Shown piece after piece: positions 6,801 through 45,121 of a stretch of 64,000 nucleotides of DNA. This DNA is from Schaalia sp. Marseille-Q2122. Lineage in GTDB: Bacteria > Actinomycetota > Actinomycetes > Actinomycetales > Actinomycetaceae. The stretch's first letter is position 1. Each line of letters starts with the position of its first letter. The position numbers and the translations under genes were made by a program. The notes under the pieces are model-generated. The model ran no database searches. It was given only the letters and a program-made list of their open reading frames with translations, and had not been told where the DNA came from. Location of the stretch: the NCBI RefSeq assembly GCF_903645355.1, contig NZ_CAHJXR010000005.1:124001-188000 (forward strand), given 5' to 3'.

Positions 6801-6867
6801 CATTGCCTTGCATGTATTCTTACAGTGACTTTTCATAGTTTTCTTCTCCGACATCAGGATGGAATAC

Positions 6868-23657: not shown

Positions 23658-24602
23658 ATGCCTTATGTTTCAAATCTTGAACCTAAGTATTCTGAAGCTG
23701 AGCACTCTCATCACGAGCACCCCCACACGGAACTCCCCAACACCGGGCACCCCGGTCGCGAACGCCACGAAGCGGCCTTACCCCACCCCCTCATCCACCT
23801 CGACACCGTCAACTCCACCAACTCCTACGCCCGCTCACTCCTTTCTGGCACCACGGCCCCCGCGCACCTCACCACGATCGTCACCGACCACCAAAGCGCC
23901 GGACGCGGACGCCTCGGCCGGACCTGGGTCACAACCGCCCACAATGCCCTCACGGCCACCACCCTCCTGCGCCTCCCCTCCCCTCTTCCTCACGAAGCAC
24001 CCGCATGGTGCCTCCACGCCGCCGCCCTCGCCATCCGCGACGCACTCGCCCCACTGCTGCGCCCCCACGGCCACCGCGTGACCACTAAATGGCCCAATGA
24101 CGTGCTCATCGATGGTCAACGCAAGATCTGTGGCATCCTCGCCGAAGACCTTGGAGAACGCGACGGCACCCACTACCTGGCCGTCGGATACGGGGTGAAT
24201 ATCGTCATGGACGCCGATGCTCGCCCCGCCCCTCACGCCACTGCCCTGAGCCTTGAAGGCGACAGCGACGCAGCAACCTCTCCCCTTGCTCGACGCGACG
24301 CACTACTAGCCACCATCGTTGACGGCATCAACTCACGCTTCACCGCCCTCCACGCCGCCCAATGGGACCCTTCCGAAAGCGGCCTGCACGAGGAAGCCCA
24401 GGCCCACTGCGTCACCCTCGGCCAACGCGTCGCACTCCCCCAGCCTCACCAGCCCAGCCCTGACACGCAGAGCGCGCCCATGGAATACGGGCGAGCACTT
24501 GCTCTTGACCGCTCAGGCGCACTCATCGTGGAACGCGAGGACGGCACACACAGCCTCATCACGACCGGCGACGTCCTCCTCCCCCACGAATACCAGCCCT
24601 GA
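23658..24602 (+). CDS. birA: Biotin-[acetyl-CoA-carboxylase] ligase (monofunctional)
   Basis: Makes biotinyl-AMP and attaches biotin to the acceptor lysine of carboxylases. 314 residues from ATG 23658, preceded by AAAGGGG. Catalytic motifs: LDTVNSTNSYA, HQSAGRGRLGRTW (biotin/ATP loop), TTKWPNDVLIDGQRKICGIL and VGYGVNIV. There is no N-terminal DNA-binding domain, so this is a group I BirA that cannot act as the biotin-operon repressor. The first 45 residues are His/Pro/Glu-rich and unlike the family; a later true start cannot be excluded. It lies 75 bp upstream of a biotin carboxylase/BCCP gene, its probable substrate, in the same orientation. Confidence 0.93.
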   Translation: MPYVSNLEPKYSEAEHSHHEHPHTELPNTGHPGRERHEAALPHPLIHLDTVNSTNSYARSLLSGTTAPAHLTTIVTDHQSAGRGRLGRTWVTTAHNALTATTLLRLPSPLPHEAPAWCLHAAALAIRDALAPLLRPHGHRVTTKWPNDVLIDGQRKICGILAEDLGERDGTHYLAVGYGVNIVMDADARPAPHATALSLEGDSDAATSPLARRDALLATIVDGINSRFTALHAAQWDPSESGLHEEAQAHCVTLGQRVALPQPHQPSPDTQSAPMEYGRALALDRSGALIVEREDGTHSLITTGDVLLPHEYQP

Positions 24603-24677
24603 TCAGCACGCTCGCGTCCGCCACCACCAGAACCACCGACCTCACGAGTGACACTAACGAAGGAAGAAGACAACTAC

Positions 24678-26498
24678 ATGCGTCCGATTCACCGACTGCT
24701 CGTTGCCAACCGCGGCGAGATCGCCCTGCGCATCATTCGCACGGCCCGCGAAATGAATATCGCCACCGTTGCCGCCTACGCCGACGCAGACGCCGAAGCA
24801 CCCTTCGTCCACGCCGCCGACGAGGCCTGGGCCCTCGGCGGGGCCGACGCCACCAGCACCTACCTCAACGTCGAGGCCCTGCTCAAAATCGCCGACGCTA
24901 CCGGAGCTGACGCCATTCACCCCGGCTACGGATTCCTCTCCGAAAACGCTGACTTTGCCAACACCCTCGCCGACAAGGGCATCACCTGGATCGGCCCCGC
25001 AGGCAGCGTCATTGATGCCCTGGGCGACAAGATCCGCGCCCGCAACGTCGCCCACTCCTGCGGCGTCGACCCCGTGCCCGGTATCTTCACCCCCATTACC
25101 GACCCCGCGCAGATCACCGACTTCATCGCCGAACACGGCTACCCCGTCGTGTGCAAGCGCTCCGATGGCGGCGGCGGACGAGGCATCACCGTGCTGCGAA
25201 CCGACGCCGACACCGACATGTTCATCGCCCGCCACACCACCCCCGACGCCGAAGGCAACACCACCTTGCCCATGCACTTTGTCGAACGATTCGTGGAGGT
25301 CGCCCGACACGTCGAAACCCAGTGCATGCGCGACTCCCACGGGAACTTTCGCGTCGTCACCACCCGCGACTGCTCGGTTCAGCGCCGCAACCAAAAGCTC
25401 ATCGAAGAAGCCCCCGCTCCCTTCCTCTCCCCCGAAACGGACGCCCAGCTGGAACGCTGGTCACGTCAGCTTTTTGAGGCCGTGAACTACGTGGGTGTGG
25501 GCACCTGCGAGTTCCTCCTCGAACCCGACGGCTCCCTGTGGTTCCTTGAAGTCAACCCCCGCCTCCAGGTCGAACACCCCGTCTCCGAAGAGGTCGCGGG
25601 CGTGGACCTCGTCAGCGAACAGTTGCGCATCGCCCAGGGGCTGGCAATCTCCGAAGCCCTGCCCCCGCGCGGACACTCCTTCGAGTTCCGCATCACCTGC
25701 GAAGACCCCGCCGCTGACCTCATGCCCTCCGGCGGGAAGGTCACGCACATTACCTGGCCCGGCGGCCCCGGCATCCGCATCGACTCTGGCCTGGTCAGCG
25801 GCGACAGCGTCCACACCAGCTTTGACTCCATGATCGCCAAGATCATCGTCACCGCCCCCACCCGCGAGGCAGCCCTTGCCCGCTCGCGTCGCGCGCTCGC
25901 TGAGTTCTGCCTCGACGGCGTTCCCACCCCGCGCGACCTCTACGTTGACATCATCAACGATCCAGCCTTCAGCGGCGAAGGAGAAGGCGGCTTCACCGTC
26001 TCCACCCGCTGGCTGGAAAACTCCTTCCTGCCCACCCACACCTACGAGGCAAGCAACGCTCAAGAGAGCGCCTGCGCACTCCCGCCGGCGAAGCGTCAAT
26101 TCACCATCGAACTTGATGGCAAGCGCATGACCCTCTCCCTGCCGCCCGACCTCTTCCAGGGCGTCTTTGGTGGCCCTGCTCCCGCCCAACGCCCTGCCCA
26201 GCCCCTACGCCAGGCCCGCCAGGAGCGCGCCGCAGCGGCCGCCCCCGCCGCGTCGACCCAGACTGTCTTGGCTGACGGCACACTCGTGTCCCCCATGCAG
26301 GCCATCGTCGTCCACATGGCCGTCACCGAAAACCAAAAGGTCGCCGAGGGAGACCTCGTTGCTGTCCTTGAAGCAATGAAGATGGAAAAGTACGTGCACG
26401 CTCCCCACGCGGGCACCGTCGCGGAAATCTTCGTTGCCGCCGGCACTTCCATTAGCACCGGCGACCACCTTGTCCGCATCGAGAAGGAGAACGCATGA
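24678..26498 (+). CDS. Acyl-CoA carboxylase alpha subunit (biotin carboxylase plus biotin carrier domain)
   Basis: Carboxylates the biotin of its own carrier domain with ATP and bicarbonate, for acetyl- or propionyl-CoA carboxylation. 606 residues from ATG 24678 (MRPIHRLLVANRGEIALRI), preceded by GGAAGAAG. The biotin carboxylase part (about 1-450) has IHPGYGFLSENADFA, CKRSDGGGGRGITVL (ATP-grasp loop), EVNPRLQVEHPVSEEVAGVDLV and RITCEDP. An Ala/Pro/Gln linker leads to the BCCP domain (about 535-606) with VLEAMKMEK, biotinyl Lys at about 568. This alpha-chain fusion is typical of actinobacteria. The downstream carboxyltransferase overlaps by 4 bp (ATGA), indicating a coupled pair. It feeds the FAS-I gene just downstream with malonyl-CoA. 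Confidence 0.94.
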   Translation: MRPIHRLLVANRGEIALRIIRTAREMNIATVAAYADADAEAPFVHAADEAWALGGADATSTYLNVEALLKIADATGADAIHPGYGFLSENADFANTLADKGITWIGPAGSVIDALGDKIRARNVAHSCGVDPVPGIFTPITDPAQITDFIAEHGYPVVCKRSDGGGGRGITVLRTDADTDMFIARHTTPDAEGNTTLPMHFVERFVEVARHVETQCMRDSHGNFRVVTTRDCSVQRRNQKLIEEAPAPFLSPETDAQLERWSRQLFEAVNYVGVGTCEFLLEPDGSLWFLEVNPRLQVEHPVSEEVAGVDLVSEQLRIAQGLAISEALPPRGHSFEFRITCEDPAADLMPSGGKVTHITWPGGPGIRIDSGLVSGDSVHTSFDSMIAKIIVTAPTREAALARSRRALAEFCLDGVPTPRDLYVDIINDPAFSGEGEGGFTVSTRWLENSFLPTHTYEASNAQESACALPPAKRQFTIELDGKRMTLSLPPDLFQGVFGGPAPAQRPAQPLRQARQERAAAAAPAASTQTVLADGTLVSPMQAIVVHMAVTENQKVAEGDLVAVLEAMKMEKYVHAPHAGTVAEIFVAAGTSISTGDHLVRIEKENA

Positions 26499-28060
26499 CC
26501 AGCGCACCGCCTCCCGCAGATCGAAGCCGAAGCGCTCACACGCAGGCGATCGAGGCCGTCGTCACTCAAGCTGAGGAACGCGCCGCCGCCCGGCAACACC
26601 CCAAGGGGAAGATGACCGCCCGCGAGCGCATGGCCGCCTTCTTCGATGATGGCCAGTGGACCGAGGTTGGCCAGTTCATCGGTGGAGATGTGCGCAAGGG
26701 CGACATGGGGTCGGCGGTGCTGACCGGCTATGGCCCTGTTCAAGGGCGCATGGTTGCCGTGTACGCTCAGGATTTCTCCATTAAGGGCGGCACGCTGGGG
26801 CGTGTTGAGGGCGATAAGATCATCGCCATTATTGACACCGCGATCCGGATGCGTATCCCGATTGTTGGCATCCAGGATTCGGGCGGCGCGCGCATTCAAG
26901 AAGGTGTTGTCGCGCTGTCCCAGTATGGGCGAATCTTTCGCAAATCCTGCGAGGCCTCGGGGCTGATCCCGCAGATTAGCCTGATCTTGGGCCCCTGCGC
27001 GGGTGGTGCCGTGTACCAGCCTGCGTTGACGGACTTCATTGTCATGACGCGGGAGAACTCGCATATGTTCGTCACCGGCCCTGATGTGGTGCGCGCAACC
27101 ACCGGCGAGGACGTGTCCTTTGAGGAGCTGGGCGGTGCCGCTGTCCATAACTTCCAGTCCGGCGTTGCCCATCACATGGCTGATTCGGAGCAGGAGGCCA
27201 TTGATTACGTGCGCTCCCTGCTGGACTACCTGCCCTCGAACTGTGAGCAGGAAGCCCCCCGCTACGAGTACACGCCCCTCCCTGAGGATGAAGCCGCCGC
27301 CCAGGCCGTGGGTGATCTGGTGCCCTGCGAGCCTCGCGTGCCCTACAACGTCGTGGACGTCATTGAGAGTCTGGTGGACCACGGTGAGTTCGTGGAGATC
27401 CAGTCCTTCTTCGCTCCGCGTATCGTCATTGGTTTTGCCTGTATTGATGGGCGCAGCGTGGGCATTGTGGCGAACCAGCCGATGGAGGATGCCGGCACGC
27501 TGGACGTGGATGCCTCTGAAAAGGGCGCGCGTTTTGTTCGTTTCTGTGATGCTTTCGGCCTGCCGATTATCACGCTGGTGGATGTGCCCGGCTACCGTCC
27601 AGGCACCGAGCAGGAGCAGGCGGGCATTATTCGCCGCGGCGCGAAGCTCATCGTCGCCTATGCCAACGCCACGGTTCCGATGGTGACGGTGATTTTGCGC
27701 AAGGCCTATGGCGGCGCCTTCATCGTCATGGGTTCGAAGTCCATTGGCGCTGACCTGGCTTTCTCGTGGCCGAACGCTCAGATTGCCGTGATGGGTGCGG
27801 AGGGCGCTGTGTCGATCCTGCACCGACGTGAACTTGCCGCCGCCCATGAGGACGGCAGCTTTGAGCAGACGCGAGCCTCGTTGGTGGATGCCTACGAGAG
27901 CGAATGCGTCTCTCCTGACCTGTCCATTAAGACCGGCGAACTCGATGGGATTATCACGCCCGCGTCGACTCGTTCAGTCCTCATCAACTCGCTTCGACTC
28001 TTGGAGAGTAAGGACCAAGACACTCACAGCCCCAAGAAGCACGACAACGGTCCGCTGTGA
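26495..28060 (+). CDS. Acyl-CoA carboxylase beta subunit (carboxyltransferase)
   Basis: Transfers the carboxyl group from biotin to acyl-CoA, giving malonyl- or methylmalonyl-CoA. 521 residues, crotonase-fold carboxyltransferase of the PccB/AccD5 type. The N-terminal half has KMTARERMAAFFDDG, GTLGRVEGDKI and IQDSGGARIQEGV (oxyanion glycines), then GPCAGGAVYQPALTDF. The C-terminal half has DVPGYRPGTEQEQAGIIRRG, KAYGGAFIVMGSKSIGADLAFSWPNAQIAVMGAEGAV and a short tail. Substrate choice cannot be read safely. Placement before FAS-I argues for acetyl-CoA carboxylase activity. The start overlaps the alpha-subunit stop; FAS-I begins 47 bp downstream, so birA to fas may form one operon. Confidence 0.94.
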   Translation: MTSAPPPADRSRSAHTQAIEAVVTQAEERAAARQHPKGKMTARERMAAFFDDGQWTEVGQFIGGDVRKGDMGSAVLTGYGPVQGRMVAVYAQDFSIKGGTLGRVEGDKIIAIIDTAIRMRIPIVGIQDSGGARIQEGVVALSQYGRIFRKSCEASGLIPQISLILGPCAGGAVYQPALTDFIVMTRENSHMFVTGPDVVRATTGEDVSFEELGGAAVHNFQSGVAHHMADSEQEAIDYVRSLLDYLPSNCEQEAPRYEYTPLPEDEAAAQAVGDLVPCEPRVPYNVVDVIESLVDHGEFVEIQSFFAPRIVIGFACIDGRSVGIVANQPMEDAGTLDVDASEKGARFVRFCDAFGLPIITLVDVPGYRPGTEQEQAGIIRRGAKLIVAYANATVPMVTVILRKAYGGAFIVMGSKSIGADLAFSWPNAQIAVMGAEGAVSILHRRELAAAHEDGSFEQTRASLVDAYESECVSPDLSIKTGELDGIITPASTRSVLINSLRLLESKDQDTHSPKKHDNGPL

Positions 28061-28107
28061 CGCCACGTCGTTCTCTACTCCCCACCCGTTTCTACATTGG
28101 ATGATTC

Positions 28108-31100
28108 ATGTCTTCTTCGTTTTTTCTGGCTGAGCTGAACAACACTCCCACCACCTTGCTTTTTGCGGGGCAGTCCACTCCGTGGCAGCGCACCCTTGAG
28201 GCCCTCTCTCAGGATGCTGAGGCGCGCACGCTCATTACGCAGCTGTGCGAGGCCTCCGATGCTTACCTCTCTCCTGTTCGTATGTCCTTGGCGACGATGG
28301 AGCTGGCCTCCCTCGATTTCTTTGCTGACATTGCGCGCCCCAATACCTCGGGCGCGGGCTTCTCCATTCCGGGAATCCTCGCTACTCAGCTCGCTGCGGT
28401 TGCCGCCCTGGAGTCTGAGGGTATGACGTTGAGCGCGGCGCGCTTCCTCGGCCACTCGCAGGGCGTGTTGGGTGTGGCGGCTTCGCAAGCGTGGGCTCGG
28501 GGGGATCGCCCGGGAGCGGGCATGGTCTTTGCTCTGGCGCGCCTGATTGGTGCGGCCGCTCAGCAGGCTGTGGCTCGCGAAGGCGTCCACGCTGTTGGCG
28601 ATGCCACCCCGATGCTGTCGGTACGTAAGGTGCCCGCCGCTGTCATTGAAGAGATGGTCACCCAGTGGAACGAGGGCGCCGCCGCCGCTGGTGATGGTCC
28701 GATTAGCCTCGCTTTGCGTAATGGTGGGGAATCCTTCGTACTTTCGGGTGCCCCCACCGATCTGGCGACCCTGCGTGCTCTCCTTGAAGAGCGCAGCGCT
28801 ACTGAGCGCGCTGCCCGTGAGGCCAAGCAGATTGGCGGCACGCCCCTGTCGCCGGTGTTTGATTACCTGTGCGTGGATATCCCCTTCCATTCGGCCCTGA
28901 TGACGGGTGCTTTTGAGCAGGTTCAGCATTGGGCTCAGGCCTGTGGTCTTGACTCGGAGGAAAATATTGCGCTGGCTCGCGCTGTGCTGCTTGAGCCTGT
29001 GGATTGGGTTGCTCAGATTCATGCAGAGCTTGCCGCTGGCGTGCGCTGGCTGGTCGATGTTGGCCCCGGTTCAACGCTGGCCTCCTTCACTGCACCTCTT
29101 ATTCAGGGCCAGGGCGTCGGCATTGTTGAGGCTGGCAGTACAGAGGATCGCGACCGCCTCGTCACTCCCGGGTGGACTCCGCCCGTCCCGGCTGACTGGT
29201 CCTCCCTGGCGCCCTCGATCATTACCCTGCCTGATGGTCGCACCGTCATGGACACCGCTTTTTCCCGCTTGACCGGCCGTTCCCCTGTGCTCCTGGCGGG
29301 CATGACCCCCACCACCGTGGATCCAGAGATCGTCGCGGCAGCCGCGAATGCTGGCTACTGGGCGGAGCTCGCGGGCGGTGGCCAGGTCACCGAAGAGGTG
29401 TACATGGAAAACCTCGCCAGCTTGCGTGAACAGCTCGCACCTGGCGTGTCCGCACAGTTCAACTCCATGTTCTTGGACCGCTACCTGTGGAATCTGCAGT
29501 TCGGCTCTCAGCGTATTGTGTCGCGCTCGCGCGCCCAGGGTGCTCCCATTGATGGTGTCGTCGTTTCTGCTGGTATCCCTGAAGGGGATGAGGCTGCCGC
29601 CCTCGTTGCGCAGCTGCGCGGTGATGGCTTCCCGTGGGTGGCTTTCAAGCCTGGCACCGTTGACCAGATCCTTCAGGTGGTGGCTATTGCCAAGCAGGTT
29701 GCCCCCACGCCTGTCATTGTGCAGGTCGAGGATGGTCACTCTGGTGGCCACCACTCGTGGGAGGACCTGGATGATCTTCTCTTGTCCACCTACGCTCAAC
29801 TGCGCGCCGTCGATAACGTGGTGCTCTGTGTGGGTGGCGGTATTGGCACTCCTGAGCGCGCCGCCGACTACCTGTCTGGCCAATGGGCTCTAGAGCATGG
29901 CCGTCCCCTCATGCCCGTTGACGGCGTCCTTATTGGTACTGCTGCGATGACGGTGAAGGAAGCGCGTACCAGTGAAGAGGTCAAGCAGCGCCTCGTCGAT
30001 ACCCCCGGCATTGACGCTCACAGCCTACGCCGCGGCTGGGTAGGTGTTGGTGCCACTGACGGGGGCATGACCTCTGGCTTGTCGCACCTGCGTGCCGACA
30101 TGCACGAGGTTGACAACGCTGCGGCTGCTGCCGCCCGCCTCATTGCAGACCTCGGGTCGGATGCTGCCGCTGTTCAGGCTCGCCGTGAGGAGATCATTGA
30201 GGTTCTGGGCCGCACGGCAAAGCCCTACTTCGGCGACCTAGCGGAAATGACCTACGCCGAGTGGGTGACCCGTTTTGCTGACCTGTCCTACCCGTGGGTG
30301 GATCCGACCTGGACCCTGCGTTTCCATGACCTGCTGCAGCGTGTGGAGGCTCGCCTGGCTCCCGTTGACCACGGAACGGTCGAGACACTCTTCCCCACCG
30401 TCGCCGACGTGGAGGATGCTCCCGCAGCTGTGGCTCACATCCTTGAGGCCTACCCCACCGCTCATACGACCTTTGTCACGGCCATTGACCAGGCGTGGTT
30501 CCCCACCCTGTGCCGTTCCTATCCCAAGCCCATGCCTTTCGTGCCGGTCCTTGATGATGACCTGCTGCGCTGGTGGGGCCAAGATGGCCTGTGGCAGGCC
30601 CAGGATGCGCGCTACACCGCTGATTCAGTACGTATTATCCCCGGCCCTGTGTCGGTGGCTGGCATTGACCGTGTGAACGAGCCTGTCGCTGAACTCCTTG
30701 GCCGTTTCGAGGCTGCTGCCGTGGCCCGCGTCGCTGACATGGGCGTGACGGCTCAGCCCGCGTACTCCCGACTGGGATCTGTGGCTCCCTCGACCTCTGC
30801 CCACGAGTGGCTGCGTCAGGTGCCCCACATTATGTGGACCGGCCACCTCATGCTCAACCCTGCTGCCGTCCTTCCTGAAGAACAGGTGGAGCTGCGTGAC
30901 ACCGAGCGCGGTGTCGACATGGTCATCCACCTCGACACTGCGTGGGATGCTGATCTGCGCGGCACTGAAAAGCACGCTGTCCGCCAGCTCATCTTCCCCC
31001 TGGTCCTGCCTGGAACCGGCGCTTCAGGTGGTGTGCCCGTCATTGACGAGGATCGCCTGCCCGAACATATGTATGCCATGCTCGCTGCTACCGCGGGCGT

Positions 31101-34100
31101 GGGGTCGACCTCGATTACGGGCGATGCGATCACCGCCATGCCGGTCATGCAGCCCTCGGAGCTGTCGCCCTTCGGTGAGGCGCACTGGAGCTTTGCTCTG
31201 CCTGCTTCCCTTGGCCCCGACCACTACGCGGTGACGGGCGCTGGCCTGCCCGGTGGCCTCGTCCCCACGCGCTGCGTGCCCGACGCTTTGCTTGGCCCTG
31301 CCTGGCCGGCGATTTACGCGGCCCTGGGGTCAGCCATTTACCGTGATTACCCGGTCATTGAGGGCCTGCTCAACGCCGTTCATCTTGATCACCTCATTGA
31401 GTTCTCCACCGCCCCCGAAGAGCTGCGAGTTCAGGGCGTGGAGCGTATCGACGTAGTCTCCCACGTGGCGGCTATTGACGAATCCTCTTCGGGTCGTATT
31501 GTGACCGTGGCTTTGAGCCTGTCGGCGAACGGTCAGCCCGTGGGCTCCACCCGCGAGCGCTTCGCGATTCGCGGGCGCGCCACCGGCACGAATGTTCCCG
31601 ATGACGCACCCGCTGCTGGCGGCGTTGAGGGTAAGGTCATTGATACGCCACGTTCCGTTCTGCGCCGCGTGATGGTGACTGCTCCGTCTGATATGACGCC
31701 CTTTGCGATCGTGTCGGGTGACTTCAACCCCATCCACACCTCCTACGCTGCGGCGAAGGTTGCGGGTATGGATGCCCCGCTCGTGCATGGCATGTGGCTG
31801 TCGGCTACTGCCCAGCACGCGGCGAGCGCATCGGTGGCTGGCGGCGTGGGCCTGGAGCTGCGCGGGTGGACCTACTCCATGTACGGCGCTGTCGAACTCA
31901 ACGACCAGGTGGAGATCACCGTTGAGCGCGTGGGCCGTGTCGTGGGTGGCGGCCTGGCGCTGGAGGTCACCTGCCGCGTGGAGGGCAATATTGTCTCTCG
32001 CGCGACCGCGCACACGACTGCTCCTCGCACCGCCTACATCTATCCCGGCCAGGGCATTCAGTCTCGCGGCATGGGTCTGGATGAGCGCGCCAAGTCTGCG
32101 GCTGCTGACGCCACGTGGAAGCGGGCTGACGTCTTTACTCGTGAGGTCCTGGGCTTCTCGATCCTGACGATTGTGCGTGATAATCCCACGGAAATCACCG
32201 TCCGCGGCCTCACCCACCGTCACCCTGAGGGCGTCCTCAACCTCACCCAGTTCACTCAGGTTGCTCTGGCTACCTTGGCCATTGCCCAGACTGAGCGCCT
32301 ACGTGAAGAAGGTGCCCTCGTTGATGGCGCCGCCTTCGCAGGACACTCCCTGGGTGAATACGACGCTCTGGCCGCCTACGCGCAGGTCTTCCCCTTGGAG
32401 ACAGTCCTTGATCTGGTCTTCCACCGTGGCTCGACCATGCACGCCCTGGTGGGCCGCGATGAGCATGGCGCATCGAACTACCGCATGGGTGCCCTGCGCC
32501 CCAGCCAGTTCGGTATCAGCCATGAAGAGGTTGAGGATTACGTGTCCTCCATTGCGCAGGCCTCGGGTGAGTTCCTCCAGATCGTCAACTACAACCTGGC
32601 TGGCCAGCAGTATTCTGTGGCCGGCACGGTTGCTGGCCTTGAGGCCCTCGCAACCGACGCTGCCGAGCGCACTGCCAAGGCTGGCGGCAAGGGCGCATTC
32701 ATGTACGTGCCCGGCATCGACGTGCCTTTCCACTCCACCGTGTTGCGTGATGGCGTGGCTGACTTCCGTGAGCGCCTTGACGAGCGTATTCCCGCCGAGG
32801 TTGACCCCGATCTCCTCGTGGGCCGTTACATTCCGAACCTTGTGGCTCGCCCCTTCGAGTTGACGCGCTCCTTCGTGGAGTCGATCTGCGAGGTCGTTCC
32901 CGCCCGCGCACTCCAGGATCTGCTCGATTCTGAGTCGGCGTGGGAGGCCGCCGTGGCCGCACCCGCACAGTTGACGCGCCTGCTGCTCATTGAGCTGCTC
33001 TCCTGGCAGTTTGCCTCCCCCGTTCGCTGGATCGAAACCCAGGACGTGCTGCTGCGTACCGCCGAGGCCGGTGGCCTAGGTGTGGACGAGGTCGTTGAGG
33101 TGGGTCTGGGTGCTGCCCCGACCTTGGCGAATATGGCCGCCCGAACCCTGCAGCTGCCTGCTTTCACGGGCCGCGCGGTGACGGTGCTCAACGCTCAGCG
33201 TGATGAGGCACGCGTGCTGCGCACTGATGTTGCCGTGGCCGAAGAGGTCGAGGATGAAGCGCCCGCGGCTCCTGCTGCTGCGCCTGCCGCTGCACCCGAT
33301 GCTTCGCAGATTGCCCCTGCTCCCGCTGCTGAGGCCGCACCAGCTCCCGTGGCTGCCCCGCCTGCTCCTGCTGGCGGTGGCGTGTCGGGCGCCGACGTTG
33401 CCGATCTGCCTTTCAAGGCCTCCGACGCGATCCTGGCCCTCTTTGCTCTGGCAGCCAAGATCCGCGCCGACGAGGTTGGCGGCCGCGACACCACTGAAAC
33501 CCTGACCAATGGCGTGTCCTCACGCCGTAACCAGCTGCTCATGGACATGTCCGCTGAGCTTGGCCTGTCCTCCATTGATGGCGCAGCCGAAGCGGATGTC
33601 GCCACCCTGGGTGCTACCGTTGACCGCCTCGCCAAGGGCTACGCGGCCTTCGGCCCGGTCCTGGGCGATCAGGTGAAGGATCGCGTCCGTAAGCTCTTCG
33701 GTGGTGCCGGCGCGAAGGCCACCCGCATCGCCGAGCGTGTGACCGGCACCTGGCAGCTGGGCTCAGGCTGGGTGGACCACGTCACTGCTGAGATCCTGCT
33801 GGGCACCCGTGAGGGAGCCTCGACCCGTGAGGGTGAACTTGCAACCCTGTCCACTGCAGCTCCTGCCAATGCTGCTGGCGTTGATGAACTCATTGACGCT
33901 GCTGTGCGTTCAGTGGGTCAGCGTCATGGCATCAGCGTGACCATGCCTCAGGCCGGCGGTGGCGCTGGCGGCGGCGTTGTTGATTCTGCTGCCCTGGATG
34001 CTTTCGCTGAGAAGGTCACCGGTGTTGATGGTGTGCTCGCTTCTGCTGCTCGCCATATCCTCACCCAGCTGGGCCACGCCCCGGTTGTCCCCGTTGCTGA

Positions 34101-35202
34101 CACTGATGACGAGGCTGCCCGCGTTGTCGAGGCTGTTGCCGCTGAGCTCGGGTCGAAGTGGGTGGACATGGTGTCTCCCGCCTTCGATGCTCGTAAGGCC
34201 GTGCTCATTGATGACCGTTGGGCCAGTGCCCGCGAAGACCTCGCCCGCCTGTGGGCTGACGGGGAACTGGCTGGCTCGCCGGTCTTTGCTGGCGCGGGTC
34301 AGGCCGTTGCCGACCAGGCATCGTGGTGGGCTGAGCGTGCGCACAAGGCTGGCCGCCATGAACTGGCTGAGCTCTACCGCTCCATCAGCACGCAGGCGTT
34401 GACCCCGGGCGATGCAGAAGCGACGCGCTACGCAGCAGATGTGGCCGTGGTGACGGGTATGACGCCTACCTCCATTGGTGGCGCCGTGGTGGCTCGCCTG
34501 CTGGCTGGTGGCGCGACCGTTATTGCGACTTCCTCGCGTGTGGACGCTCGCCGTCTGGGCTTTGCTAAGCGTCTCTACCGTGAGCATGCTGCTCCGGGTG
34601 CGCGCCTGTGGCTGGTTCCTGCGAACCTGTCCTCCTACCGTGACGTTGACGCCCTGGCTGAATGGGTGGGTAGCCCCTACTCGACCTCGGTGGGCGGCTC
34701 AGCTGTGGAGCTCAAACCTGCGCTGACCCCAACGCTCTTCTTCCCCTTCGCTGCCCCACAGGTCAGCGGGACGATGGCTGATTCGGGTGCTCAGACGGAA
34801 AACCAGATGCGCCTGCTCCTGTGGAGTGTAGAGCGCTCGATCGTTGCTCTGGCTGCAATCGCTGCCGACACCGATGTGGATCACCGCCTGCACGTGGTGC
34901 TGCCCGGCTCACCTAACCGCGGCCTCTTCGGTGGGGATGGCGCCTACGCCGAATCCAAGGCATCCTTCGACGCGATCCTCGCTAAGTGGCACTCCGAGCC
35001 TGTCTGGTCCTCTCGCGTGTCCTTCGCTCACCCGCGTATCGGCTGGGTGCGCGGCACGGGCCTCATGGGTGGGAACGACCCGATGGTCGCCGCCGTAGAA
35101 TCCACCGGCGTGCGCACGTGGTCCACCGAGGAAATGGCTGACCAGCTCATGGCTTTGTGCTCGGCTCAGACCAGCTGCCTCTGCGGCACCTGTCGAGGCT
35201 GA
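28108..35202 (+). CDS. fas: Type I fatty acid synthase, N-terminal part (AT-ER-DH-MPT-ACP-KR); frame breaks at its end
   Basis: A multifunctional enzyme making long-chain acyl-CoA from acetyl- and malonyl-CoA. 2364 residues covering most of a bacterial FAS-I of about 3080. Domains in order: acetyltransferase (GHSQG, Ser about 117); enoyl reductase (LLAGMTPTTVDP near 397, then VEDGHSGGHHSWED); dehydratase/MaoC (GDFNPIHTSYAAAKVAG, His about 1210, then PLVHGMW). Next are malonyl/palmitoyl transferase (GHSLGEYDA, Ser about 1414), an Ala/Pro linker (about 1715-1755), ACP (NGVSSRRNQLLMD, likely phosphopantetheine Ser about 1804) and ketoreductase (VVTGMTPTSIGGAV near 2114, GAYAESKASFDAIL). The last residues (about SCLCGTCRG) are out of the family frame and end at TGA 35200. 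The ketosynthase is in the next reading frame. Confidence 0.92.
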   Translation: MSSSFFLAELNNTPTTLLFAGQSTPWQRTLEALSQDAEARTLITQLCEASDAYLSPVRMSLATMELASLDFFADIARPNTSGAGFSIPGILATQLAAVAALESEGMTLSAARFLGHSQGVLGVAASQAWARGDRPGAGMVFALARLIGAAAQQAVAREGVHAVGDATPMLSVRKVPAAVIEEMVTQWNEGAAAAGDGPISLALRNGGESFVLSGAPTDLATLRALLEERSATERAAREAKQIGGTPLSPVFDYLCVDIPFHSALMTGAFEQVQHWAQACGLDSEENIALARAVLLEPVDWVAQIHAELAAGVRWLVDVGPGSTLASFTAPLIQGQGVGIVEAGSTEDRDRLVTPGWTPPVPADWSSLAPSIITLPDGRTVMDTAFSRLTGRSPVLLAGMTPTTVDPEIVAAAANAGYWAELAGGGQVTEEVYMENLASLREQLAPGVSAQFNSMFLDRYLWNLQFGSQRIVSRSRAQGAPIDGVVVSAGIPEGDEAAALVAQLRGDGFPWVAFKPGTVDQILQVVAIAKQVAPTPVIVQVEDGHSGGHHSWEDLDDLLLSTYAQLRAVDNVVLCVGGGIGTPERAADYLSGQWALEHGRPLMPVDGVLIGTAAMTVKEARTSEEVKQRLVDTPGIDAHSLRRGWVGVGATDGGMTSGLSHLRADMHEVDNAAAAAARLIADLGSDAAAVQARREEIIEVLGRTAKPYFGDLAEMTYAEWVTRFADLSYPWVDPTWTLRFHDLLQRVEARLAPVDHGTVETLFPTVADVEDAPAAVAHILEAYPTAHTTFVTAIDQAWFPTLCRSYPKPMPFVPVLDDDLLRWWGQDGLWQAQDARYTADSVRIIPGPVSVAGIDRVNEPVAELLGRFEAAAVARVADMGVTAQPAYSRLGSVAPSTSAHEWLRQVPHIMWTGHLMLNPAAVLPEEQVELRDTERGVDMVIHLDTAWDADLRGTEKHAVRQLIFPLVLPGTGASGGVPVIDEDRLPEHMYAMLAATAGVGSTSITGDAITAMPVMQPSELSPFGEAHWSFALPASLGPDHYAVTGAGLPGGLVPTRCVPDALLGPAWPAIYAALGSAIYRDYPVIEGLLNAVHLDHLIEFSTAPEELRVQGVERIDVVSHVAAIDESSSGRIVTVALSLSANGQPVGSTRERFAIRGRATGTNVPDDAPAAGGVEGKVIDTPRSVLRRVMVTAPSDMTPFAIVSGDFNPIHTSYAAAKVAGMDAPLVHGMWLSATAQHAASASVAGGVGLELRGWTYSMYGAVELNDQVEITVERVGRVVGGGLALEVTCRVEGNIVSRATAHTTAPRTAYIYPGQGIQSRGMGLDERAKSAAADATWKRADVFTREVLGFSILTIVRDNPTEITVRGLTHRHPEGVLNLTQFTQVALATLAIAQTERLREEGALVDGAAFAGHSLGEYDALAAYAQVFPLETVLDLVFHRGSTMHALVGRDEHGASNYRMGALRPSQFGISHEEVEDYVSSIAQASGEFLQIVNYNLAGQQYSVAGTVAGLEALATDAAERTAKAGGKGAFMYVPGIDVPFHSTVLRDGVADFRERLDERIPAEVDPDLLVGRYIPNLVARPFELTRSFVESICEVVPARALQDLLDSESAWEAAVAAPAQLTRLLLIELLSWQFASPVRWIETQDVLLRTAEAGGLGVDEVVEVGLGAAPTLANMAARTLQLPAFTGRAVTVLNAQRDEARVLRTDVAVAEEVEDEAPAAPAAAPAAAPDASQIAPAPAAEAAPAPVAAPPAPAGGGVSGADVADLPFKASDAILALFALAAKIRADEVGGRDTTETLTNGVSSRRNQLLMDMSAELGLSSIDGAAEADVATLGATVDRLAKGYAAFGPVLGDQVKDRVRKLFGGAGAKATRIAERVTGTWQLGSGWVDHVTAEILLGTREGASTREGELATLSTAAPANAAGVDELIDAAVRSVGQRHGISVTMPQAGGGAGGGVVDSAALDAFAEKVTGVDGVLASAARHILTQLGHAPVVPVADTDDEAARVVEAVAAELGSKWVDMVSPAFDARKAVLIDDRWASAREDLARLWADGELAGSPVFAGAGQAVADQASWWAERAHKAGRHELAELYRSISTQALTPGDAEATRYAADVAVVTGMTPTSIGGAVVARLLAGGATVIATSSRVDARRLGFAKRLYREHAAPGARLWLVPANLSSYRDVDALAEWVGSPYSTSVGGSAVELKPALTPTLFFPFAAPQVSGTMADSGAQTENQMRLLLWSVERSIVALAAIAADTDVDHRLHVVLPGSPNRGLFGGDGAYAESKASFDAILAKWHSEPVWSSRVSFAHPRIGWVRGTGLMGGNDPMVAAVESTGVRTWSTEEMADQLMALCSAQTSCLCGTCRG

Positions 35203-35203
35203 C
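35165..35203 (+). other. Frame break in fas (KR-KS linker)
   Basis: Frame 1 reads ALCSAQTSCLCGTCRG-stop, whereas frame 2 from 35174 reads AASAAPVEADLTGGLGGG and joins smoothly to the ketosynthase part. One extra base (or two missing) near 35172 explains it. The whole 28108-37351 span is 9244 nt, one more than a multiple of three. It could be a sequencing error, a true mutation or programmed shifting; the TGA in 'GGC TGA C' loosely recalls the prfB +1 site. Confidence 0.85.
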
Positions 35204-35236
35204 CTGACCGGCGGCCTGGGTGGCGGCATTGACCTC

Positions 35237-37351
35237 GTGGCTCTGCGTCAGCAGGCAATGGAGAACGCTCCCACGCAGACGGCCGGTACTGCCGCCGCAG
35301 TTGCCACCGTTGAGGCTCTGCCCTCCCCCACCCTGTCCCTGCCCACCCACGTTGACCCTGCCCAGTGGGGAGCGGTCAATGCCGACCTGCACGAGACGGT
35401 CGTCATCGTGGGTCACGGCGAGGTCGGCCCCTGGGGTTCGGCGCGTACTCGTCTGGAGGCAGAGCTGGGTATCCAGTCCGACGGCACCGTTGAGCTCACC
35501 CCCGCTGGCGTCCTCGAACTGGCGTGGATGACTGGCCTGCTCACCTGGTCGGACACGCCCGTTGGCGGCTGGTACGACGCTGATGATCAGCTCGTCCCTG
35601 AAGCGCAGATCTTCGATCGTTACCGTGACGAGGTCGTGGCGCGTTCCGGCGTGCGATTCTTCACTGACGATGGCCCCCTCCATGACGGGTGGACTCCGGA
35701 GCTGACCACGATCTTCCTTGATCGTGACATCACCTTCACGGTCGATACCCGTGAGGAGGCCATGTCCTACCAGGTGGCAGATCCGGAATTCACCATCGTC
35801 ACCGAGGTCGACGGCGAATGGCAGGTCACCCGTAAGTCCGGTGGTCAGGCTCGCGTGCCTCGCCGCGCGACGGTAACCCGCCGTATCGGCGGCCAGTTCC
35901 CCACGGACTTTGACCCGTCGCGTTGGGGTATCCCCGCTTCGATGATTGACTCCATCGACCGTATTGCGGTGTGGAATCTTGTCACCGCTGTGGATGCCTT
36001 CGTCTCGGCTGGCTTTAGCCCCACCGAGCTGCTGCAGATCGTCCACCCGGCTGACGTGGCTTCCACGCAGGGCACGGGCTTTGGTGGCATGACCTCCATG
36101 CACCGCCTCTTTGTGGATCGTTTCCTCGGTGAGGAATTCCCCCAGGACATCCTCCAAGAGACTCTGCCCAACGTTGTGGCCGCACACACCATGCAGAGCT
36201 ACATCGGCGGTTACGGCTCGATGATTAACCCGGTCAGCGCCTGCGCAACGGCAGCGGTGTCCATTGAAGAGGGCGTGGATAAGATCCACTGCGGTAAGGC
36301 CGATTTCGTGGTGGCTGGTGCCATTGATGATATTCAGGTTGAGTCTGTGGTGGGCTTTGGTTCGATGAACGCCACCGCCAACTCCAATGACATGCTCGCC
36401 CAGGGTATTTCCGAGCGCTTTGTGTCGCGTGCGAATGACCGCCGTCGCGGTGGCTTCGTGGAGTCTCAAGGTGGAGGCACCGTACTGCTCACCCGTGCCT
36501 CTGTGGCTTTGGAGATGGGTCTGCCTGTCCTGGGTGTGGTGGCTTTTGCTCAGACCTTCTCTGATGGTTTCCATACATCCATCCCGGCTCCGGGTATTGG
36601 CGCCCTGGCATCAGCTCGCGGCGGGAAGGCCTCGCGTCTGGCCAGCCAGCTTGCTGCCTACGGCGTGAGCATTGATGACGTGGCGGTGGTGTCCAAGCAT
36701 GACACCTCCACCAACGCCAATGACCCCAATGAGTCTGACCTGCATACTCGTATTGGTCACGCGCTGGAACGCGACGCTGGCAACCCGCTCTTTGTCGTCT
36801 CCCAGAAGACCCTGACGGGCCACGCGAAGGGTGGCGCCTGTGTCTTCCAGGTCGGTGGCATCACTCAGCTCTTCCAGACGGGTGTCATTCCTGCGAATGC
36901 GTCCCTGGATTGTGTGGATGATGCAATGGCGGCTTACCCGCACCTGGTGTGGCTGCGTTCGCCGCTCAACCTGGGTGCATCAGGCCCGATTAAGGCTGCT
37001 TTTGCGACCTCGCTGGGCTTTGGTCACGTCTCCTCCCTGGTGGCTCTGGTTCACCCCGCAGCTTTTGAGGCTCTGGTGGTGTCCAGCGTTCACGATCGTG
37101 AGGCTGGTATGAGCCTGCTCGCCCAGTGGCGCAAGCGTTCGGATGCGCGCCTCATGGCGGCGCACCGTCATCGTGAGGCGGGCATGATGGGTCACCGCGA
37201 ACTCTTCGAGGCCGCTCCCGCCCGTCGCCTGCCTACCGGTGCTGCCCTGGAGGCCGCTGGTGGAGACGCTCACGAGGTTGAGGCCGCGATGCTCCTCGAT
37301 CCGAACGCTCGTTTGAGTGCTGAAGGCGTCTACACCTCTCGCTCACAGTAG
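35237..37351 (+). CDS. fas: Type I fatty acid synthase, C-terminal ketosynthase part
   Basis: The beta-ketoacyl synthase portion of FAS-I, condensing malonyl-ACP with the growing chain. 704 residues from GTG 35237, but family-like sequence in this frame already begins at 35174, so it is a continuation of the upstream reading frame rather than a clear separate gene. GTG 35237 and ATG 35258 are the only nearby starts and have no good ribosome binding site. Motifs: SMINPVSACATAAVSIEEG (nucleophile Cys about 336), KHDTSTNANDPNE (His about 488) and KTLTGHAKGGACVFQ (His about 529). No phosphopantetheinyl transferase domain follows, as is normal in bacteria; acpS lies 225 bp downstream. Confidence 0.9.
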   Translation: MALRQQAMENAPTQTAGTAAAVATVEALPSPTLSLPTHVDPAQWGAVNADLHETVVIVGHGEVGPWGSARTRLEAELGIQSDGTVELTPAGVLELAWMTGLLTWSDTPVGGWYDADDQLVPEAQIFDRYRDEVVARSGVRFFTDDGPLHDGWTPELTTIFLDRDITFTVDTREEAMSYQVADPEFTIVTEVDGEWQVTRKSGGQARVPRRATVTRRIGGQFPTDFDPSRWGIPASMIDSIDRIAVWNLVTAVDAFVSAGFSPTELLQIVHPADVASTQGTGFGGMTSMHRLFVDRFLGEEFPQDILQETLPNVVAAHTMQSYIGGYGSMINPVSACATAAVSIEEGVDKIHCGKADFVVAGAIDDIQVESVVGFGSMNATANSNDMLAQGISERFVSRANDRRRGGFVESQGGGTVLLTRASVALEMGLPVLGVVAFAQTFSDGFHTSIPAPGIGALASARGGKASRLASQLAAYGVSIDDVAVVSKHDTSTNANDPNESDLHTRIGHALERDAGNPLFVVSQKTLTGHAKGGACVFQVGGITQLFQTGVIPANASLDCVDDAMAAYPHLVWLRSPLNLGASGPIKAAFATSLGFGHVSSLVALVHPAAFEALVVSSVHDREAGMSLLAQWRKRSDARLMAAHRHREAGMMGHRELFEAAPARRLPTGAALEAAGGDAHEVEAAMLLDPNARLSAEGVYTSRSQ

Positions 37352-37440
37352 ACGCCGCTGCGCCTGCTTCGCCAAGCGAGGCAGCGCATAACGCCTTGGC
37401 GGCAGACGCGCTGTGGCACTGAGCTACCGCGTAGCATATG

Positions 37441-37486
37441 AGGTCTGTGGGCCGGTCGGGAGGAATCCCGACCGGCCCACAGACCT
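37441..37486. terminator. Perfect 21-bp hairpin between fas and acpS
   Basis: AGGTCTGTGGGCCGGTCGGGA (37441-37461), loop GGAA, then TCCCGACCGGCCCACAGACCT (37466-37486). No T-run follows, so it may be a U-less terminator or an RNA-stabilising hairpin separating fas from acpS. Confidence 0.65.
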
Positions 37487-37576
37487 ATCCGGGCTAGGCG
37501 TCTGTGTCCTCTCCTTTTCTGTCATCATGCCTTTGTGCAAGGGATTGCTGAGGCGGCGCGTGTTAGGTTTATCCTC

Positions 37577-38077
37577 ATGATCCTTGGGATTGGCATTGAC
37601 CTGGTTGACTGCGCGGCATTGAGTGAGCAGCTCGCTCAACCCGGTTCAGTCTTCCTCTCGCGAGTGTTCACTGCCAGAGAATGGCGAACGCTTGCCAGCC
37701 GCCTGGAAGAAAAACACGGACTCTCCTTCCAGATGGGCGACCCTCTTCCCTCGGCCGCAGTGCCGCATCTGGCGGCACGCTGGGCCGCGAAAGAGGCGGT
37801 CGTGAAAGCCTGGTCTGGGGCCCTGTACGGCATGTCTCCTCCTCTTGCTGCTGAAGAGGTTGACTGGCGTGAGATCGAGGTCATCCATGACCACTGGCAG
37901 CGGCCAGCACTCCGCCTTCACGGGCGTTTTGCTGAGAGTGTTCGCCACAGCCTGCAGGACCGTGTGGCCACCGTGGATAGACTGCGGTGGCATCTGTCCC
38001 TCAGCCACGACGGACCCCATGCGATTGCCTACGTCGTCCTGGAAGCTGCCACAGGCGGCCTCGGAAAGGACGAATGA
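37577..38077 (+). CDS. acpS: Holo-[acyl-carrier-protein] synthase
   Basis: Transfers 4'-phosphopantetheine from CoA to the ACP serine, activating FAS-I. 166 residues from ATG 37577 (MILGIGIDLVDCA), the family N-terminus; the frame is open 14 codons upstream. Motifs: GIGIDLVD (Mg-binding Asp), then RWAAKEAVVKAW (catalytic Glu/Lys) and LSLSHDGPHAIAYVVLE. The middle insert (about residues 33-60) is longer than in E. coli AcpS, as in other actinobacteria. It lies directly after the FAS-I gene, matching its role, although a large hairpin separates them. It is convergent with the ssb-like gene, with only 7 bp between the two stops. Confidence 0.93.
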   Translation: MILGIGIDLVDCAALSEQLAQPGSVFLSRVFTAREWRTLASRLEEKHGLSFQMGDPLPSAAVPHLAARWAAKEAVVKAWSGALYGMSPPLAAEEVDWREIEVIHDHWQRPALRLHGRFAESVRHSLQDRVATVDRLRWHLSLSHDGPHAIAYVVLEAATGGLGKDE

Positions 38078-42016: not shown

Positions 42017-42191
42017 CTATCGCAGATCACCACTGGTTTGAAGGTATTCCTGACCAAATATCACCTTTTCCAATGTGACAATGCTTCTATTTTCATTACC
42101 TAAAACCCTTCACGATCCTTTGCCGCACTGATAGGGTAATGATGTACAAACCATGCGGGTGGCCCCTGCGCCCGCAGAAGGAAATGACATC

Positions 42192-44210
42192 ATGTTCAAG
42201 AAGTTTGGAGCGGCACTGGCTACCTGCGCCCTTGCCGCCACACTCGGGGTTGTTGCAATCCCCGGCGCAATGGCCTCATCTGAGCCAGCAGTTCCCGTCG
42301 TTAAGCTGACGGCAGCAACGTGCAGTGCTCCGAGCAACACCATCAGTGTCAGCGGTCTCGATGCCCTCGGCACTAATGGACACCGCTTGGTCATTGAGAT
42401 TAACAACAAGCCTGCGAAGCAGATAAAAACACCACTTCGAAAGAAGCTGGCGGAGGGCCCTCAGGATGCTAAAACGCTCTTTTCTACCCTTGAGTTAAAA
42501 GTCGCCTACGGACAAAAAGTTGTCATCAAATCCTATTGGTTCAATAATGGCAAAAATAAGCTGTCTCACCTGGCAGACCGTGAAGCCACTGTTGAGTTCC
42601 AAATCGGTAGCCCTCTCAATGAGGCCGTACTTCTGGGCGCTTCGAATGAGATCACCCTGGTTGACCCAGCAACACTGAACTGCACTCCGGCTGCTCCTGC
42701 TCCGAAGGACAGCGCAGATGACATTACCGTCCCCACTTTCGCTCTCGCTGCTGCTCAGTGTGAGGCTGGTGAGGCTACCGATAACGTGATGACGGTGGAC
42801 AAGGCTCAAAAGCACGCCAACTACCGTTTCGTCGCAACCTACGACGGTAAGAGCATTTCCCTCAAGGAAGAGCTTCGCAACAAGCTGTGGACCGAAGGCA
42901 AGCTCACCGCTAGCGACATCAAGGCCGCCTACCCAACCTTCGTCTTCGACTACACCAAGCCGCTGATGGTGCAGGCTTACTGGTTCGATGCAGAAAAGGC
43001 TTACGCCCCCGCCCTGTACGACACCGCACTTAAACTCACTGTCGGCGACTCTGCTCGTTTCATCAAGCGCGGCGAGGCCAAGACCCTCACCCTCGCTGAC
43101 CCGGCAACACTGAACTGCACTCCGGCTGCTCCTGCTCCTAAGGACAGCGCAGACGACATTACCGTCCCCACTTTTACGCTCACTGCTGCTCAGTGTGAGG
43201 CTGGTAAGGCTACCGATAACGTCATGACGGTAGACAAGGCTCAAAAGCACGCCAACTATCGTTTCGTCGCAACCTACGACGGTAAGAGCATTTCCCTCAA
43301 GGAAGAGCTTCGCAACAAGCTGTGGACCGAAGGCAAGCTCACCGCTAGCGACATCAAGGCCGCCTACCCAACCTTCGTCTTCGACTACACCAAGCCGCTG
43401 ATGGTGCAGGCCTACTGGTTCGATGCGGAAAAGGCCTACGCCCCCGCCCTGTACGACACCGCGCTCAAACTCACTGTCGGCGACTCTGCTCGTTTCATCA
43501 AGCGCGGCGAGGCCAAGACCCTCACCCTCGTTGACCCGGCAACACTGAACTGCACTCCGGCTGTTCCTGCTCCTAAGGACAGCGCAGACGACATTACCGT
43601 CCCCACTTTTACTCTCACTGCTGCTCAGTGTGAGGCTGGTAAGCCCACCGATAACGCGATGATGGTGGACAAGGCTCAAAAGCACGCCAACTATCGTTTC
43701 GTCGCAACCTACGACGGTAAGAGCATTTCCCTCAAGGAAGAACTGCGCGACAAGCTCTGGACCGAAGGCAAGCTCACCGCCAAGGACATTCAGGCCGCCT
43801 ACCCGGCCTTCGTCTTCGACTACACCAAGCCTCTCACTGTCCAGGCCTACTGGTTCGATGCGGAAAAGGCCTACGCCCCCGCCCTGTATGACACCACACT
43901 CCAACTCACCGTTGGTAAGTCTGATCGATTCATCAAGCGCGGCGAGGCTAAAACCCTCACCCTCGTTGATCCAGCAACACTGAACTGCAAGAGCATTTCT
44001 AAGCCGGATGACAACCAAACTCCCAAGAATCCTCAGACTTCGGAAAAGCCTAAGGCAGACTCGAAGGCAAAGGATGCGAAGAGCACCTCGGTTAAACCGA
44101 AGGTTGCCAAGACTGGTTTCGATTCCACCCTGCTCTCTCTTGTTGCTCTCCTCGCGCTCGGTGGCGGAGCGATTGCCATGATCACTCTTCGTGCACGCAC
44201 GCGTCAGTGA
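42192..44210 (+). CDS. Sortase-anchored surface protein with Cys-bracketed tandem domains
   Basis: 672 residues from ATG 42192 (AGAAGGAAA upstream); the frame is open from 42153. A signal peptide (MFKKFGAALATCALAATLG, cleavage after AMA) is followed by one diverged and three near-identical domains of about 145 residues. It ends in VAKTGF, a hydrophobic helix and RARTRQ, a sorting signal of the LAxTG kind. Each domain starts with a Cys (AAQCEAG) and ends with another (DPATLNC); the diverged first copy keeps both (TAATCS and DPATLNC). A disulfide closing each domain is therefore likely. Inner motifs are HANYRFVATYDGKSISLKEE and VQAYWFDAEKAYAPALYD. I do not recognise the domain; adhesion or spacing is a guess. 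Confidence 0.85.
   Translation: MFKKFGAALATCALAATLGVVAIPGAMASSEPAVPVVKLTAATCSAPSNTISVSGLDALGTNGHRLVIEINNKPAKQIKTPLRKKLAEGPQDAKTLFSTLELKVAYGQKVVIKSYWFNNGKNKLSHLADREATVEFQIGSPLNEAVLLGASNEITLVDPATLNCTPAAPAPKDSADDITVPTFALAAAQCEAGEATDNVMTVDKAQKHANYRFVATYDGKSISLKEELRNKLWTEGKLTASDIKAAYPTFVFDYTKPLMVQAYWFDAEKAYAPALYDTALKLTVGDSARFIKRGEAKTLTLADPATLNCTPAAPAPKDSADDITVPTFTLTAAQCEAGKATDNVMTVDKAQKHANYRFVATYDGKSISLKEELRNKLWTEGKLTASDIKAAYPTFVFDYTKPLMVQAYWFDAEKAYAPALYDTALKLTVGDSARFIKRGEAKTLTLVDPATLNCTPAVPAPKDSADDITVPTFTLTAAQCEAGKPTDNAMMVDKAQKHANYRFVATYDGKSISLKEELRDKLWTEGKLTAKDIQAAYPAFVFDYTKPLTVQAYWFDAEKAYAPALYDTTLQLTVGKSDRFIKRGEAKTLTLVDPATLNCKSISKPDDNQTPKNPQTSEKPKADSKAKDAKSTSVKPKVAKTGFDSTLLSLVALLALGGGAIAMITLRARTRQ
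42663..43967 (+). repeat. Three tandem 435-bp coding repeats
   Basis: The junction GACCC.GCAACACTGAACTG recurs at 42663, 43098, 43533 and (as GATCCAGC) 43968, exactly 435 bp apart each time. Copies 1 and 2 are nearly identical in nucleotides; copy 3 differs at some tens of positions. Such homogeneity suggests recent duplication or gene conversion and possible copy-number variation. Confidence 0.92.
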
Positions 44211-44238: not shown

Positions 44239-44277
44239 ATAGGTGAGGGGAATGCCATCGGTATTCCCCTCACCTAT
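44239..44277 (+). terminator. Terminator of the repeat surface protein gene
   Basis: ATAGGTGAGGGGAATGCC (44239-44256) pairs with GGTATTCCCCTCACCTAT (44260-44277) with one G-T pair, followed by TCTCTTATTT. Confidence 0.82.
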
Positions 44278-44368
44278 TCTCTTATTTGCCCGCTCTTCCC
44301 AACCTCCCTCTATCTCCTCGACTCTCGTTTATCTCCCTCCCTCACCCACAGAGTCCACTACTAGTCTT

Positions 44369-45121
44369 ATGCTGCCTCTGTACGATCTGAGCCCCGTTGC
44401 TTGGGGCATTCTTGTGGTTGCGGCATTTCTTATTGGGATTGCAAAGACTGCGCTACCGGGTCTTGTCACCTTTTCTATGGCTCTCTTCGCTGCGATTCTT
44501 CCAGCACGAGAATCCACAGCGATTATGCTCGGCCTCTTACTAGTGGGGGATCTATTTGCTATTTGGTTATACCGCCACCATGTAGATTGGCTGATACTTC
44601 GACGCCTCGTTCCACCGGTTCTCATCGGCCTGTTATGTGGGGTTCTCATTGTGTGGCTTCTGAGCAGTGAGCAACTTCGTCGCCTGATCGGCGTGATCCT
44701 TTTACTGCTCACCGCAGGGACCCTCGTTCTTTTACATTCCACACGGCATGATGCTCAATTGTTTTCTCGTAGTGCTCCCGCACGCTGGTTCTATGGCGCT
44801 CTTGGAGGCTTCACGACGATGGTGGCAAATGCTGGCGGGCCTCCAATGACCTTATATTTTGTCGCTTCTGGGATGGATATGGTTCGTTTCCTCGGCACCC
44901 AGGCGTATTTCTTTTTTGCCGTGAATCTGATGAAGATTCCCTTCCAGTACAGCCTGGGGCTGTACTCAGCGACTTCTCTTTCAACAGCTCTTGCCTTGCT
45001 AGCTCCGCTCCTTCTTGGCATTGCTATTGGGCGCGCATTCATCCGTTCAATCAAGCCAGAGTTTTTCACTCCTCTGATTGTGTCTCTCACCGTCGTGTCG
45101 TCGCTGTATCTGCTTGTATGA
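44369..45121 (+). CDS. TauE/SafE family sulfite-exporter-like permease
   Basis: 250 residues with about eight hydrophobic helices, the size and pattern of the TauE/SafE (DUF81) family. Members export sulfite, sulfoacetate or other small organic anions; the substrate here is unknown. Family blocks: the N-terminal helix with GIAKTALPGLVTFSMALFA, and its second-half counterpart GALGGFTTMVANAGGPPMTLYF, both carrying the conserved small-residue loop. ATG 44369 is chosen by family alignment. The frame is open to 44243, but that ATG lies inside the upstream terminator hairpin. No clear ribosome binding site is seen. Codon use is less GC-biased than in neighbours. Confidence 0.85.
   Translation: MLPLYDLSPVAWGILVVAAFLIGIAKTALPGLVTFSMALFAAILPARESTAIMLGLLLVGDLFAIWLYRHHVDWLILRRLVPPVLIGLLCGVLIVWLLSSEQLRRLIGVILLLLTAGTLVLLHSTRHDAQLFSRSAPARWFYGALGGFTTMVANAGGPPMTLYFVASGMDMVRFLGTQAYFFFAVNLMKIPFQYSLGLYSATSLSTALALLAPLLLGIAIGRAFIRSIKPEFFTPLIVSLTVVSSLYLLV

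Follow-up and report, generated by a model that had tools for sequence, protein, structure and literature searches.

The closest described counterparts of the enzyme considered here are the single-chain type I fatty acid synthases (FAS-I) of actinobacteria, represented by the FAS-I of Schaalia canis and by 4v8v and 6gjc, which we take to be mycobacterial FAS chains. Type I FAS coded in two open reading frames is well established in fungi; the available text of PMC6972935 distinguishes Ascomycota, Tremellomycetes and Rhodosporidium types and places the split points at three locations: the MPT domain, a 4-helical bundle packing at the KR/KS interface, and the SBS sheet. Yeast FAS re-engineered to carry the remaining two split points still assembles and is functional, and removal of the new terminal helices created by the bundle-type split stops fatty acid synthesis, as far as the available parts of PMC6972935 and PMC7300031 describe it. 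The yeast strain list in PMC6972935 contains an entry fas2 delta 428-1887 which, taken together with our alignment, suggests that the fungal bundle cut lies near residue 428 of the yeast alpha chain, before KR. FAS-I has also been lost altogether: many corynebacteria are described as lacking it and as needing fatty acids from their habitat (PMC8733736 and PMC3350403, in the portions available). As these species show, loss of FAS-I is survivable in a host-associated actinobacterium. Among titles and abstract openings, no report of a broken or split bacterial FAS-I, or of a fatty acid requirement in the present group, was found, save for a remark in the accessible text of PMC8733736 that concerns fragments of FAS-I in an assembly of C. 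xerosis.

The DNA analysed here (the window, 64,000 nucleotides) belongs to a Schaalia sp. genome of 2.71 Mb in 12 contigs; a search of a plasmid collection gave no match. It contains a run of + strand genes (23658-38077) for a biotin ligase, two acyl-CoA carboxylase subunits, FAS-I and an AcpS-type phosphopantetheinyl transferase. The biotin carboxylase/biotin carrier subunit (24648-26498) and the carboxyltransferase subunit (26495-28060), the latter directly upstream of FAS-I, are open frames identified by Pfam, as is the AcpS-like gene (37535-38077; Pfam ACPS), which is likely to be the FAS-I partner gene.

FAS-I itself occupies two frames on the + strand. The first (28108-35202) runs for 2364 amino acids to a premature TGA at 35200-35202, with the C-terminus LCSAQTSCLCGTCRG, and has homology covering AT, ER, DH, MPT, ACP and KR. 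Pfam recognizes the AT, helical, MaoC (DH) and acyl transferase (MPT) domains; its ACP match, at 24.8 bits, falls short of the 30.6 cut-off, and neither ER nor KR has a Pfam match of its own. This part also aligns to the fungal beta and alpha chains. The second frame, reached by a +1 shift, is free of stops from 35099 to 37351, so that the two overlap over 35099-35202; it reads through AASAAPVEADLTGGL, and its first ATG, GTG or TTG is the GTG at 35237. From that codon the frame gives 704 amino acids (35237-37351) comprising both ketoacyl synthase halves (ketoacyl-synt N and C). Both parts match the solved FAS chain 4v8v_A in order, the first over residues 42-2383 and the second (query from 35174) over residues 2384-3084. 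A conserved segment at the end of KR, AASAAPVEADLTGGLGGGIDL (35174-35236), lies in neither of the two possible chains. The change of frame is real in the sequence and far beyond chance, as the first-pass annotation had it when it described a FAS-I gene interrupted by a single frame change in the KR-KS linker.

The nearest named relative at the locus is S. canis OH770, with 94-95% identity over the KS part. Its FAS-I is a single open reading frame of 3083 amino acids spanning both parts of the window gene, which bears out the earlier expectation of one chain of about 3080 residues; S. canis residues 1-2356 match one window frame (93.2% identity) and residues 2351-3080 the other (93.1%). The window gene therefore resembles single-chain actinobacterial FAS-I in its full-length, ordered homology, its length of about 3080 codons and its 93-94% identity to S. 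canis, and differs in that a net shortage of five bases breaks its frame between KR and KS. A DNA search of the genus matched 30 of 35 genomes, the window's own included, and left 29 other loci for comparison. In all 29, LTGG follows the GVxxW-type motif at the end of KR at a distance of exactly 33 codons (99 nt), in frame and without a stop, and the alignment of S. canis with 4v8v_A is ungapped across this stretch; because of this constancy, the 94 nt found in the window are to be read as five bases too few. The shortage falls somewhere within 35171-35177, its placement being ambiguous with equal scores throughout. It had been proposed that one extra base accounts for the break. Removing a base does join the frames on paper, but leaves the segment two codons short of all 29 genus loci, and the alignment with relatives points instead to a net five-base loss within a segment of invariant length. 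As judged from the sequences compared, a single loss of five bases would be the preferred event; loss of two codons together with the gain of one base is possible and would be less simple.

A break at this place between KR and KS is seen in the window genome only, the orthologue being intact in its near relatives (S. canis and all 29 genus loci). In a sample of the order this KS was found in 48 of 396 genomes, seven of them from the genus and the window's own included. The latter has its KS in a 750-aa frame; 43 of the 48 carriers have frames of at least 2973 aa. The remaining shortened frames (G130, G329, G200 and G338) are set aside as splits, since each is truncated by a contig end or close to one, and its frame passes unbroken through the KR-KS junction. 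The KS search of the genus gave a match in 31 of 35 genomes. Here G004 holds the KS end only, near a contig end, so that five draft assemblies in all (G130, G329, G200, G338 and G004) break inside FAS-I at or near the end of a contig. G010 and G001 carry duplicated or scrambled pieces, and G014 is represented by a short contig; none of these was accepted as a split. In G010 (L050, G010:C2:661000-679000) FAS-I is spread over several pieces that partly overlap and are in different frames, which suggests duplication or misassembly. Eight of the 43 order genomes with long frames (G236, G269, G311, G144, G319, G407, G037 and G071) were reported with one internal stop in the KS match, and have open frames of about 3100-3270 aa.

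Both halves of the window gene bear the mark of strong purifying selection. Relative to S. canis, dN/dS is 0.045 over the 2354 codons before the break and 0.050 over the 725 codons after it, within the range of five control genes (0.007, 0.017, 0.063, 0.100 and 0.153). With two outgroups, the amino acid changes assigned to the window and S. canis branches number 27:24 and 23:25 before the break (58 and 62 differences being unassignable to a branch) and 11:7 and 12:13 after it (26 and 23 unassignable), and none of these ratios is significant. Thus, neither dN/dS nor the branch counts give any sign of relaxed selection on the window branch. As a rough bound, FAS-I would have drifted freely for at most about 3-6% of that branch; this bound used an upper share of 0.80 downstream of the break, for which the computed values are 0.83 and 0.69. 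Because selection is strong in both halves and the window branch shows no excess of changes, a lesion that killed the gene must be young. It should be noted that low dN/dS with no branch excess fits a very young lesion, an error in the sequence or a gene that still works.

We consider it most likely that FAS-I here is an ordinary broken gene and no new kind of split enzyme, and assign a probability of roughly 0.55 to a recent loss-of-function mutation, a net five-base deletion, in the single FAS-I of the sequenced isolate. The proposed course of events is that five bases (net) were recently deleted just after the ketoreductase in the only FAS-I gene found. Translation would then end about 28 bases downstream of the lesion, at the TGA, giving an AT-ER-DH-MPT-ACP-KR chain devoid of its ketoacyl synthase, and little or no KS would be produced. 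Fatty acid synthesis de novo would be lost, and the strain would presumably draw its fatty acids from the host or the medium. The gene would, on this account, be a young loss-of-function allele, neither an evolved two-chain enzyme nor a recoded one. Against it stands the expectation that FAS-I should matter for growth, in a genome where neither a FabH nor a genuine second ketoacyl synthase is evident (below). The open acpS and carboxylase genes would also suit an intact FAS-I in the real genome, whereas corynebacteria without FAS-I are described in the available text of PMC8733736 as being without AcpS too, and a gene still at work would give an equally low dN/dS. Many of the same observations suit the other leading reading, in which the five bases are missing in the assembly only and the single-chain FAS-I of the organism is as normal as that of its relatives: the strong purifying selection before and after the break, without excess change on the window branch, a sole FAS-I with no FabH found, the open site in all 29 other genus loci, and the open acpS and carboxylase genes. 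A comparable case may exist in G018, the genome of which is a single contig. There, one extra base in the KS region relative to G013 changes the FAS-I frame at a different site (L044, about 5420-5450; G018:C1, about 525420-525450), and this may also be an error. The usual sequencing error is the gain or loss of one base in a homopolymer, and a five-base loss is of another kind. The net loss in the window lies outside any run of at least five identical bases (none was found in 35091-35260), which is atypical of errors. Moreover, the surrounding assembly looks clean, although compatible with a single error. Among 43 S. canis open reading frames listed against the window, the only clean frame switches are FAS-I and one tandem-repeat locus. 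Over the adjoining 70 kb of the contig, 57 were listed and one was flagged; its first 116 codons overlap its neighbour, as the coordinates show, and it was not counted as a break. Over the 100 open reading frames listed, covering about 134 kb, no clear break besides FAS-I is thus seen outside the tandem-repeat locus. An assembly error is accordingly a serious but distinctly less probable explanation than a genuine deletion. Mutation and an indel error, the latter already named among the options at the outset, are the two leading readings. If the lesion is an error it needs to be flagged, lest it be cited as a split FAS-I.

It has to be asked whether the two frames could instead yield a working enzyme. 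A two-chain FAS-I would have its first chain end at 35202 and a restart at the GTG at 35237, 34 bases past the stop, to give a separate KS that joins the barrel as in the split fungal FAS. In its favour, both parts are conserved by dN/dS, a start codon follows closely behind the stop, and type I FAS withstands division at several places, both in nature and by engineering (PMC6972935, PMC7300031, in their available parts). The predicted ribosome-binding energy at the GTG (-7.5 kcal/mol) is unremarkable, 5% of random sites lying at -9.7 and 25% at -6.3. This is a weak test and the codon cannot be dismissed on that score, because seven other starts at the locus are no better as a class (FAS -3.3, accA -1.3, accD -9.7 and acpS -2.2; the others -9.8, -8.6 and -5.0). 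Against a working split, the restart would drop 21 residues, among them a DLTGGL block that is invariant in 13 of 13 aligned relatives and present in 4v8v_A. Since the first usual start codon lies beyond this block, which is consequently missing from both chains, a two-chain enzyme is unlikely; a cut that drops so conserved a block would, by analogy, be unlikely to be tolerated. In addition, the C-terminus of the first chain consists of missense residues, and a break here occurs in none of the 47 other carriers of the order sample and none of the 29 other genus loci. We therefore regard a working enzyme in two pieces as improbable, and the earlier suggestion of KS as a separate working chain fares poorly. 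A structure prediction of the KR-linker-KS stretch for 13 sequences was poor (mean pLDDT 41) and was not used.

The most novel form of this reading, and one as improbable, is a naturally split bacterial FAS-I in which a separate KS, restarted just past the KR stop, assembles with an AT-ER-DH-MPT-ACP-KR chain, divided at a point not described for fungi in the available text of PMC6972935 and PMC7300031. In the alignment with the yeast alpha chain KR begins at about residue 676 and the window break falls near 915; because the bundle cut would be at about 428, the present split point would be a new one. The annotation's description of the division as unlike the fungal one thus seems to hold for its position in the sequence. 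A split as such would not be without precedent, since two-part type I FAS is well established (PMC6972935, as far as available). The window gene shares with the fungal enzymes a type I FAS coded in two open frames, but its cut omits a conserved block and shows no sign of age. Only in the unlikely event of a two-chain enzyme would the locus be of wider interest. The least probable reading, which we consider very remote, is recoding, in which a +1 shift by ribosomes near the TGA would yield some full-length FAS-I. UGA followed by C is a weak stop context. The shift required is indeed +1 and the frames overlap, and a shift at the TGA would retain the DLTGGL block. Nevertheless, no X XXY YYZ slippery site was found in 35099-35202 and no homopolymer of at least five bases in 35091-35260, and S. 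canis, like each of the 28 further genus loci, reads the stretch in frame, with the shift in 0 of 29, so that the programmed shifting put forward earlier is not supported. Because of the five-base shortage, mutation is the simpler cause.

Returning to the proposed recent deletion, its consequences depend on what else the genome could use. No second copy of FAS-I was found in it. FabH was found in 0/1 and 0/6 genus genomes, the window's own being in both sets, with a control that was positive in 10 of 14 well-known genomes. The genome has one other match to PF00109 (27.2 bits, cut-off 20.8), considered as a backup ketoacyl synthase and rejected as a thiolase. With one FAS-I, no FabH and only this thiolase, de novo synthesis should therefore stop if the lesion is real. 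The isolate should then be a natural fatty acid auxotroph, joining the host-associated actinobacteria without FAS-I. For a FakB/DegV route of exogenous fatty acid use there is no support from PF02645, found in none of six genus genomes (control positive in 6 of 14). The likeness to the lipophilic corynebacteria (PMC8733736, PMC3350403, as far as available) would be that the only de novo synthase is lost, as we propose for the window, in a host-associated actinobacterium; the difference is that in those species the gene is absent, as acpS is described to be, whereas the window has one small lesion and an open acpS.

FAS-I loss has a likely precedent within the genus, because none was found in two near-complete genomes: in G017 and G029, both 99% complete, searches for the FAS-I KS, a 1000-aa middle part of FAS-I, PF00109 and FabH all gave nothing. 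The survey thus suggests two further members of the genus without FAS-I. G008, which is 70% complete, shows the same absences of FAS-I, PF00109 and FabH. Judging from these gene contents, G017 and G029, and also G008, may be natural fatty acid auxotrophs.

Three further features of the window were noted. The tandem-repeat locus mentioned above (42153-44210) is an open reading frame with three copies of a 435-base unit, of which S. canis has one copy; in S. canis the locus comprises two open reading frames in different frames, and no Pfam family is matched above the cut-off. Next to it, a TauE-type gene (44243-45121) shows a two-base difference near 44367, with the first part of the S. canis gene in another frame and the window version longer than that of S. 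canis. Finally, 6859-15087 codes for a large surface pullulanase of 2742 aa that matches alpha-amylase, pullulanase and, in five places, long Rib domains.
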